Assembly: GCA_021792045.1 (NCBI GenBank)
Contig: JAJYVJ010000047.1
Location: 1-12,242 of the forward strand
Length of the DNA: 12,242 nucleotides
From: Thermoplasmata archaeon
GTDB lineage: Archaea > Thermoplasmatota > Thermoplasmata > Thermoplasmatales > Thermoplasmataceae
Direction of reading: 5' to 3'
Below the pieces are notes generated by a model. That model was not told the DNA's origin and did not search any database. It was given only the letters and a program-made list of their open reading frames with translations. Numbering within the stretch: the stretch's first letter is position 1; each line of letters starts with the position of its first letter. Positions 1,435 through 4,292 of this stretch are shown here, one piece after another. The translations under genes were made by a program, and so were the position numbers.

Positions 1435-2661
1435 TCACGTTAAAGCAAGGATACCAAAAACAACGACGAAGATCATACTTGCCCAGTAAGCTATTTCACC
1501 TTTTCTAGAAGTAGAATAATCACCCATTATAGATCGGTTTCTGGCTATTATACCCATTAGCACACCAGGGCCGATCAGGACAAACACAAAGACCACTAAC
1601 AAGTCAAGAACCGTGTTAATTAGTAACGTCGCAGGAATAATCAAAGCTATTATGACTGCGGGAAGACTTTCCAGAATGTAAACAATAGATGATTTTTCTC
1701 TTTTGATTCCAAGTGCTTCCATGAATCCCCATGCGCTTCCAAGAGAAATTACCACGAGAGCCAGAAATGCAGCGCCTATTAAACCAACACCGAATATGTA
1801 GGGGGAATACACTCCGGCTATAGCGGAAAGACCTTTTGATAATTCCGGGATCGATGCAAAATCCATGTCAGGGTTTATCCCACTCATGGCCATCTCTACA
1901 ATAACCATCAGCATTTCGGAAACAACCGCCCCAAAAAGAGTTTCCATCCTCATTGACTTTAATGCGATCTGAGTAAAGCGAGATCTTTTTCTGGTCTTCG
2001 TATCACCAGAGATGTCAGCATCTATGTTGCTTTTTCTTACGTGAGACACTTTTTCAGCAGTTGCGGAAGCTTGAAAAAATAACATGAATGGCATAATTAC
2101 AGCACCAACATTCACGGCAAGCATGAAGAGAAAAGTTGGCGACGGGACAAGGTATACAGGGTTGTAAGATTTGATTCCTCTCACAACAAGTGTAGCCATG
2201 AAAGCCACTATAAGAAAGGCCGACACTGCGACCAATATTGATTCAGTGACCCCGTATTTTCTTCGAATCACAATAGCCAGATGAATTATATAAAAAATTG
2301 GAAGCGAAAATATTATTGGAACACCAAAGAAAGAAAGTCCAATAGCAATACCTAAGTATTCTACTATGTAAGTTATTACGTCGGTCAGTACCATTGGGAG
2401 GGTTGTAATCACTGCAATTTTATGAGAATAATTGCCCCGAATAACCTCGCCTAAACCCTTTTCGGTTGCAACACCAATCCTGCCTGATGTTTCTTGGACG
2501 AAGTAAAGTGGAATTATAAGCAGAATCATAAACCAGATAAGACCATACTTGAATATTGCACCTGTTTCAGCCGCACCGATTGTACTGCTTGCGTCCATAT
2601 CGGCAATCATTACAAGCCATGCTGGCCCAAAGAACTTTATGTACTTTCTGAAATTTCTTAT
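1435..2661 (-). CDS. NRAMP-like divalent metal transporter with variant metal-site motifs
   Basis: This is a membrane carrier of the NRAMP (SLC11, MntH) fold with ten to eleven hydrophobic helices, expected to import a divalent cation with protons. Counting from the Met at 2610, helix 1 carries IADMDASS (2-9), where canonical members have DPGN. Helix 6 carries AVIMPF (170-175), where canonical members have MPH. The Ala and Met of the helix-6 site are kept; the helix-1 Asn and helix-6 His are not. Similar changes are known in NRAMP-related magnesium carriers, so the ion cannot be assigned. The first ATG (2610) gives 391 residues but cuts helix 1: the conserved FFGPAWLV is encoded just upstream in frame. 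No ATG, GTG or TTG exists in frame back to a stop at 2701-2703. The start is drawn at an ATA codon (2661), which would give 408 residues, but this is a guess. A DtxR-type palindrome lies in its promoter. Confidence 0.85.
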   Translation of the reverse strand: MRNFRKYIKFFGPAWLVMIADMDASSTIGAAETGAIFKYGLIWFMILLIIPLYFVQETSGRIGVATEKGLGEVIRGNYSHKIAVITTLPMVLTDVITYIVEYLGIAIGLSFFGVPIIFSLPIFYIIHLAIVIRRKYGVTESILVAVSAFLIVAFMATLVVRGIKSYNPVYLVPSPTFLFMLAVNVGAVIMPFMLFFQASATAEKVSHVRKSNIDADISGDTKTRKRSRFTQIALKSMRMETLFGAVVSEMLMVIVEMAMSGINPDMDFASIPELSKGLSAIAGVYSPYIFGVGLIGAAFLALVVISLGSAWGFMEALGIKREKSSIVYILESLPAVIIALIIPATLLINTVLDLLVVFVFVLIGPGVLMGIIARNRSIMGDYSTSRKGEIAYWASMIFVVVFGILALT

Positions 2662-2690
2662 CCTGGTCGTATTTCTTCCTGCGCCAGAAA

Positions 2691-2704
2691 TTAGGTATAC
2701 CTAA
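2691..2704. promoter_or_regulatory. Perfect palindrome TTAGGTATACCTAA, probable DtxR/MntR-family operator
   Basis: The 14 bases read identically on both strands. Half-sites TTAGG/CCTAA are those known for DtxR, IdeR, MntR and SirR type metal-responsive repressors. The site begins where the NRAMP TATA element ends and lies before the expected transcript start (about 2683). Bound repressor there would block polymerase recruitment. A metal-transport gene behind it fits the family's known role. The regulator itself is not in this window. Confidence 0.7.
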
Positions 2705-2923: not shown

Positions 2924-3068
2924 AAAATATGCATGATACAAATTTGCAATGGCAATCTTTACAATTTGCAGCAATATCATTCGCAAAAATTAGACGATAA
3001 CTGCAAAAATCAATTAAATAGTCGGAAGCGATAAGAGTAGAACGAGTAATAATACATATCAGTATAAG

Positions 3069-4292
3069 ATTCGGGGATTCGACAAAAGATTATGGATTCT
3101 TAGTGCAACCAGATTCATAAGAGCGTTTGGTAGAGGATCAACATTCATATTTCTCCCGCTCATTTTTATAATCGATTACAAAGTATCATTTATTGAAACA
3201 GGGGTTCTTCTCGGATTTGCCACAGTGATCATGGCTGTTATTCAATATTTTTCAGGAATTTTTACTGATAAAATTGGCAGGCGATCAATCCTAGTTTATT
3301 CACAAATACCTGCCGTAGTGCTCTATCTTTTGATCTATTACACTGTCGCTGTCCCCCATTACTTTATTCCATTAGTTCTTTCATGGTACGGAACCATAGT
3401 TGTCAATTCTGTCCAGTATCCTGCTGTGCAGGCCTCTGTTGCCGATATAACGGAAGTTCAGGATCGATTATCCGGTTATACGATGATGAGAATAATGGCA
3501 AACCTTGGTATTGCGGTTGGACCATTGCTGGGAGCCTACCTTGCTGGCTACGGGTTACAGTATATTTTTCTTATCTCTGCCATAGCAACAGTCGTTGAAA
3601 TTGTCATGCTTTACTTAATGATGAGAGAAACGTATTTCCCGAGACTTCATGAACCGCTGTTGAAGGGCGACCTCTCAAAGGCATATAGATCGGATAAATT
3701 TTTTATTGCATTCATCGTAATAGGAATTTTCCTTGGATTCTTCATGAGGCAAAGAGGAAGTTCATTAACAGTTTACTCCATAGCCATAGAGAATCTCCCA
3801 TTCATGTATTTAGGTTATATTTGGGCACTTAATGGTCTCCTAGTTGTCCTGATTCAGATCCCTATACTAAGGCTCATGACAAATGCGGGTAACCCTATGT
3901 TATGGAGAGGCATAGGAACCATCTTCTATGCTGGGGCCTTTTTGGTATTAGTAAATTATCCTACATTAGAGATACTACTTTTGTTCATGACCATCTCTAC
4001 ATTCGGAGAAGATATGCTTTCACCAACAACTCAGAGCATAATTACCTCCATAGCTCCCGAAAACATGAGAGGATCATACATTGGTGTGTACAATCTTTAC
4101 ATCAGCATAGGTTCCTTCAGTGGTGCCATAATAGGATTATGGCTTCTAGCAGTCTTAAGAAATTTAACTGCAACTTATTGGATCATTATAGCAATCGGAT
4201 CCATCGCAACGGCAGTAATGTACATCTCAATAAGCGGACAATTTAAGAAGAGATTTGCTGAGATACCGAAAACTGTAATTGAACAGAGCTAA
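3069..4292 (+). CDS. Major facilitator superfamily transporter, start codon non-canonical or lost
   Basis: This is a 12-helix secondary transporter, probably an exporter or solute carrier in the cytoplasmic membrane. Counted from 3069 it has 407 residues, normal for the superfamily. The helix 2-3 loop holds motif A as GIFTDKIGRR (63-72). A polar linker near residues 150-170 separates the two six-helix halves, and the tail is basic. The first ordinary start codon is GTG at 3225 (355 residues), but that would remove helix 1. The in-frame sequence before it (GFDKRLWILS, then an Arg-rich turn and a hydrophobic helix) is clearly protein-like. From there back to a TAA at 3015-3017 there is no ATG, GTG or TTG. 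The ATT at 3069 sits where such proteins usually begin, so I place the start there. A start-codon mutation or sequence error is equally possible. The substrate is unknown. Confidence 0.85.
   Translation: MRGFDKRLWILSATRFIRAFGRGSTFIFLPLIFIIDYKVSFIETGVLLGFATVIMAVIQYFSGIFTDKIGRRSILVYSQIPAVVLYLLIYYTVAVPHYFIPLVLSWYGTIVVNSVQYPAVQASVADITEVQDRLSGYTMMRIMANLGIAVGPLLGAYLAGYGLQYIFLISAIATVVEIVMLYLMMRETYFPRLHEPLLKGDLSKAYRSDKFFIAFIVIGIFLGFFMRQRGSSLTVYSIAIENLPFMYLGYIWALNGLLVVLIQIPILRLMTNAGNPMLWRGIGTIFYAGAFLVLVNYPTLEILLLFMTISTFGEDMLSPTTQSIITSIAPENMRGSYIGVYNLYISIGSFSGAIIGLWLLAVLRNLTATYWIIIAIGSIATAVMYISISGQFKKRFAEIPKTVIEQS

Follow-up and report, generated by a model that had tools for sequence, protein, structure and literature searches.

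Bacterial MntR is a metal-sensing repressor of the DtxR family that acts on the NRAMP gene mntH, and its boxes have half-sites other than TTAGG/CCTAA. In the Archaea, MDR1 of Archaeoglobus fulgidus is a DtxR homologue that represses by blocking the recruitment of polymerase. Thermoplasma acidophilum, from the same order as the relatives analysed here, has a long DtxR-family regulator, the IdeR protein reportedly described by Yeo et al. in 2014. Leyn and Rodionov are said to have described, in 2015, palindromic motifs of archaeal DtxR-family regulators upstream of FeoAB, NRAMP, ZIP and TroA transporter genes, and to have sorted them into groups across orders. By title or start of abstract, none of the literature matches listed had DtxR operators of Thermoplasmatales as its topic. 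In Actinobacteria, IdeR and DtxR likewise repress metal uptake, and the IdeR consensus TTAGGTTAGSCTAACCTAA, a 19-mer, contains TTAGGN4CCTAA (PMC10317159).

The window analysed here is a 12,242-nucleotide stretch of contig JAJYVJ010000047.1 from a Thermoplasmata archaeon. It carries the half-sites of the actinobacterial box at the same spacing of 4, but as a single 14-bp unit, in an archaeal promoter and with an NRAMP gene as the putative target; with a single unit, one dimer would be expected instead of two. The long DtxR proteins of relatives belong to the same fold family as IdeR of T. acidophilum. They differ from MntR in their length of about 205 amino acids, which includes a C-terminal extension. 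MDR1 has another promoter and other targets. The predicted operator adds a lineage to an already known kind of control. With one repressor and few promoters, it would form a compact, testable metal-control circuit for a group of acidophilic archaea.

A conserved palindrome in the NRAMP promoter

The sequence TTAGGTATACCTAA lies at positions 2691–2704, upstream of a minus-strand gene for an NRAMP-family divalent metal transporter (1435–2661, in a frame open from 1435 to 2700). An exact 14-base palindrome beside an NRAMP-like gene had been proposed in the original prediction, and both elements were confirmed: the palindrome has zero mismatches, and the gene product matched PF01566 with an E-value of 1.3e-42 (146.6 bits against a cut-off of 29.8). 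The inverted TTAGG and CCTAA half-sites, four bases apart, are a feature of DtxR/IdeR-type operators, and the site is listed as a candidate one-dimer box. In the earlier label 'DtxR/MntR-type' the first part fits, the half-sites matching those of the DtxR/IdeR boxes cited above; the boxes of MntR differ.

Symmetry alone means little here, because the window contains three perfect 14-bp palindromes where a mean of 0.9 was obtained from 200 first-order Markov sequences. The pattern TTAGGN4CCTAA had a mean of 0.02 in the same sequences. As a bare palindrome TTAGGTATACCTAA is therefore unremarkable, and it takes its meaning from comparison. The upstream limit of the NRAMP frame is a stop codon within the palindrome, so the site is non-coding in that frame. 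No Rfam model matched the window at gathering scores.

The A/T-rich stretch AAATATTTAT (2714–2705, minus strand) abuts the palindrome and precedes it on the strand of the gene. It is the putative TATA box of the NRAMP promoter, and agrees with the TATA element originally placed beside the site. In the orthologue of genome G003 the ATG starts 5 bases past the palindrome, so that a leaderless transcript would put the palindrome between the TATA box and the start. A position between the TATA element and the putative transcript start would fit this spacing.

Relatives of the NRAMP gene were collected in a single scan of genome contigs, which yielded 74 loci, and 52 of these were searched from 250 bases upstream to 90 bases downstream of the match. 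At 13 of the 52, including all five loci that were at least 80% identical (L001–L004 and L009), the exact pattern lay no more than 250 bases before the start of the matched NRAMP. When seven promoters were aligned (the window, G001, G095, G003, G006, G004 and G002), TTATTTAGG and ACCTAATT were invariant, as was TTAT (2708–2705), the final four bases of AAATATTTAT. The mean column identity of this alignment was 57%, with ragged ends counted in.

Recurrence of the site across the order

A set of 117 genomes of the order, reached via G001, was searched for TTAGGN4CCTAA. The pattern occurred at 135 places in 73 of the genomes. Among the cultured relatives, Ferroplasma acidarmanus Fer1 has the site (locus L036). 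It lay just upstream of an NRAMP gene at 29 places and just upstream of a dtxR gene at 21, where about 0.1 would be expected by hand arithmetic. At least 37 genomes have dtxR and NRAMP in tandem within 2.5 kb, with dtxR first; since dtxR coordinates were partial, the 21 places and the 37 genomes are lower bounds.

The other 85 places were assigned to neither gene, and 79 of them were read (all except G031:C55, G035:C95, G036:C53, G063:C42, G013:C178 and G105:C5). These sites precede ZIP-like genes (29), MFS genes (11), genes for FeMo-cofactor-like proteins (9) and other genes that could not be linked to metals (21); one is inside a DtxR frame, and eight have no candidate gene. 'ZIP-like' denotes a BLAST match to one of four representatives. 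When three of these were put to Pfam, one passed the Zip model, one had an E-value of 0.18 and one had no Zip match.

Two of these groups drew attention in their own right. L078, L086, L092, L093, L186 and similar loci, which carry the palindrome, encode membrane proteins of about 250 amino acids with QNLTEG/QNxTEG motifs. Two were put to Pfam and neither passed Zip; they may represent a divergent ZIP group or something else. The small FeMo-cofactor-like proteins (L165, L168, L169, L170, L176, L224, L226, L228 and L229) come from another set of genomes and have the palindrome directly before them. One that was checked matched PF02579, and some are divergent from a DUF2284 metal-binding protein.

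Counted over whole genomes, TTAGGN4CCTAA is often no commoner than the reversed pattern used as control (G001 has 2 places for the former and 3 for the latter), and the case for an operator therefore rests on location and not on frequency. Of the nearest relatives, G095 has the exact site at one place and G001 at two, upstream of NRAMP and of an MFS gene. With up to one mismatch there are 24 places in G001 and 14 in G095 (3 of them exact in all), while the reversed control gave 91 and 89. Inspection of four of the 35 one-mismatch places put all of them in coding frames, two being the same place in G001 and G095, and they were rejected as further sites. With so few exact sites, and the inspected one-mismatch places coding, the regulon of the nearest relatives would be minimal. 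Autoregulation was looked for in G095 and G001, but inspection by eye of the 120 bases before their dtxR genes showed no palindrome. Recurrence at orthologues and at other metal genes had been set as a test of the prediction, and both were found in the order, the former at the 13 loci and 29 NRAMP places given above and the latter at dtxR, ZIP-like and MFS transporter genes. The metal regulon originally envisaged is supported at the level of the order, but would come down to one or two promoters with an exact site in the nearest relatives.

DtxR-family regulators

DtxR-family genes matching PF02742 were found in 111 of the 117 genomes, as the original prediction would have it, and both nearest relatives, G001 and G095, are among these. 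Each of the two has one long DtxR (205 amino acids) and one short one. The long protein of G001 (L096) scored 36.4 bits with PF01325 and 70.3 bits with PF02742, against cut-offs of 26 and 27, and matched structures of IdeR and DtxR, among them 4o5v, which we take to be IdeR of T. acidophilum. That of G095 is a near twin. From these relatives we infer a DtxR in the window organism itself. G073 and G100 had one DtxR match each.

The metal site of L096 has Asp6 at the place of Met10 in IdeR and Met97 at the place of Cys102. Glu100 and His101 of the long DtxR are invariant in the family alignment; for comparison of the primary metal site we take Glu105/His106 as the IdeR numbering. At the first two of the metal-site places, MntR carries Asp/Asn and Glu. 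By alignment, the residues of L096 are thus a set mixed between IdeR and MntR, from which Fe2+ and Mn2+ cannot be told apart.

Operators change with the recognition helix

The recognition helix was compared in 70 genomes with a long DtxR, chosen partly for having a site, and operator labels were assigned by hand. Three classes were distinguished. Class A has Pro or Ala at residue 39 and Thr or Ser at residue 40 (for example SPPTVYEYL; 43 genomes), class B has Arg38 and Gln39 (ARQSVYDEI; 23 genomes), and class C has Gly39 and Ala40 (SPGAINDEM; 4 genomes). One class B protein, L108, scored 22.6 with PF01325, below the cut-off of 26. At NRAMP or dtxR, 40 of the 43 class A genomes have TTAGG operators and 3 have none, while in class B 21 of 23 have TAAGG..CCTTA and 2 have TCAGG..CCTTA; because genomes were chosen partly for having a site, 40/43 and 21/23 are not unbiased rates. 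Three of the four class C genomes have TAATG..CATTA upstream of dtxR and the fourth has none. Fisher's test of helix class against operator gave 8e-17. With the helix columns excluded from the tree, classes B and C each formed one clade (support 0.989 and 0.927), so this association reflects about two evolutionary changes and not dozens.

Of the three class A genomes that have no operator at either gene, G087 and G108 have TTAGG before ZIP-like genes, and G025 is probably a misfiled paralogue. None of the 50 TTAGG places upstream of NRAMP or dtxR comes from a class B genome. No TAAGG site was present in any of 17 NRAMP promoters (14 of class A genomes plus the three of G003, G004 and G006), nor within 300 bases of any of 105 TTAGG sites in fetched loci. 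G093, G094 and G098 have both class A and class B proteins; their NRAMP genes have TAAGG sites and their ZIP-like genes TTAGG sites. Among promoters outside the helix table, that of G107 has an exact TAAGG site, that of G022 has TCAGG..CCTTA, that of G096 is one mismatch from TTAGG, and that of G070 has no site. As TAAGGN4CCTTA occurs in 83 of the 117 genomes, class A included, and is often rarer than its control, only its position at NRAMP counts.

At individual loci, TAAGGN4CCTTA lies upstream of NRAMP in L005, L008, L029, L273, L274, L276, L278–L281 and L288–L299, in genomes whose DtxR helix reads RQ(S/T); L292 (G107) was assigned by its operator alone. In L301, L302 and L303, TAATGN4CATTA closely precedes dtxR genes whose products have a GA(I/V)NDE helix; in the fourth such genome, G028, it is not exact.

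Structures of IdeR with DNA place Pro39 close to base pair 4 and show a contact between Thr40 and base 2 of CCTAA (PMC8464063). Residue 39 and base 4 are changed in class B; class C is changed at residue 40 and base 2 as well. The match between residues and bases is a lead and not proof, because the contact at base pair 4 is described as unspecific in PMC8464063, where a case is made for indirect readout. On balance we favour, by a little, a natural switch of DtxR specificity within the order, in which classes A, B and C would use TTAGG..CCTAA, TAAGG..CCTTA and TAATG..CATTA according to residues 38–40, with two codes side by side in three genomes. The half-site bases that change are those which residues 39 and 40 approach, so if the switch is true, contacts to the bases would be important in a protein family whose recognition of DNA has been argued to be indirect. 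The linked pairs of regulator and operator also provide a natural experiment on DNA reading by repressors of the DtxR family. This covariation is a by-product of the analysis, and a more interesting one than the operator itself.

Proposed control of the NRAMP promoter

We consider it very probable that the palindrome is the operator through which a metal-activated repressor of the DtxR/IdeR type controls the gene for the NRAMP importer. With enough Fe2+ or Mn2+ in the cell, a DtxR dimer loaded with metal would bind TTAGG-N4-CCTAA right behind the TATA element and keep RNA polymerase from initiating at the NRAMP promoter. When metal is scarce, the repressor would depart and the importer would be produced. 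Binding, repression, the identity of the metal and the transcript start are parts of this circuit that we infer. The repressor-operator reading of the original prediction is well supported by comparison.

The operator could also be real but used, in the close lineage of the window organism, by another regulator: either the short DtxR paralogue or a member of a different protein family that has come to occupy the site. The short paralogue of G001 and G095 is of MntR size (about 135 amino acids), and its recognition helix, KPPTTIQLL, resembles class A. In G003, G004 and G006, which keep the site at NRAMP, neither two Pfam models nor the family alignment detected a DtxR. This absence is weak evidence, because the completeness of these assemblies is not stated. 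Against the short paralogue, it is long dtxR genes that the pattern precedes in at least 21 cases, and the operator changes along with the recognition helix of the long DtxR. Class B genomes G011 and G012, moreover, hold short paralogues yet have no TTAGG site genome-wide. Control by a regulator other than the long DtxR is therefore improbable.

Further observations were made on the genomes that keep the site. At the place where G095 has its dtxR, the flanking genes (presumably alaX-like and adenosyltransferase-like, named from sequence) directly adjoin in G003, G004 and G006. G002 has the same adjacency, yet its dtxR lies elsewhere in the genome. PF01325 matches in the three genomes (L128–L130) were rejected as the missing regulator, since by sequence they are a different domain fusion, which we take to be a helix-turn-helix joined to a riboflavin-kinase-like domain. 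Metagenome proteins 68–72% identical to the G001 DtxR exist, and might belong to the lineage of G003, G004 and G006. The palindrome is kept at NRAMP in these genomes at L003, L004 and L009; G004 and G006 also keep it at a ZIP-like gene, and G004 at an MFS gene too. G090 has a site at NRAMP and no PF02742 match.

Repression of NRAMP by DtxR is also to be weighed against a bound DtxR that activates, or that mainly serves the divergent MFS gene (frame 3051–4292) on the other side of the site. The site does lie in the stretch between two divergent genes, but it abuts the TATA-like stretch of NRAMP and is about 350 bases from the MFS frame, and the window MFS protein is only weakly similar (24% over 173 residues, E 2e-4) to the MFS transporters whose genes have a site in other loci, so that we regard this as very unlikely. 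A chance palindrome, kept only through the recency of the relatives, is barely credible: perfect 14-bp palindromes are common in the window and the exact pattern hardly recurs in the nearest relatives, but the half-sites are invariant though much of the promoter has diverged, and the site recurs at NRAMP in distant relatives and at dtxR.

The NRAMP protein

The three database proteins closest to the NRAMP product are 95–98% identical over 93% of the frame, and the named one among them is from a Thermoplasmatales archaeon. The frame has no ATG, GTG or TTG before position 2610, that is, before residue 31 (2610–2700, minus strand), where its first ATG is found; the original prediction was silent on the absent start. 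Comparison with the N-termini of orthologues makes ATA at 2661–2659 the likeliest candidate for an uncertain start. The start-less stretch 2610–2700 is identical in G001 and similar in G095, where its spacing to the palindrome differs by one base.

Canonical NRAMP proteins have the motifs DPGN in TM1 and MPH in TM6. Neither is present in the aligned family, whose TM1 carries DMDASS and whose TM6 carries MPFMLFFQ; in the window protein (P0001) these are at residues 34–39 and 203–210. As judged from its motifs and its Pfam match, the window protein is a relative of NRAMP with non-canonical motifs. M203 and P204 are invariant in the 29 rows of the NRAMP alignment, and the best structural match, 7qia, has Ala-Pro.
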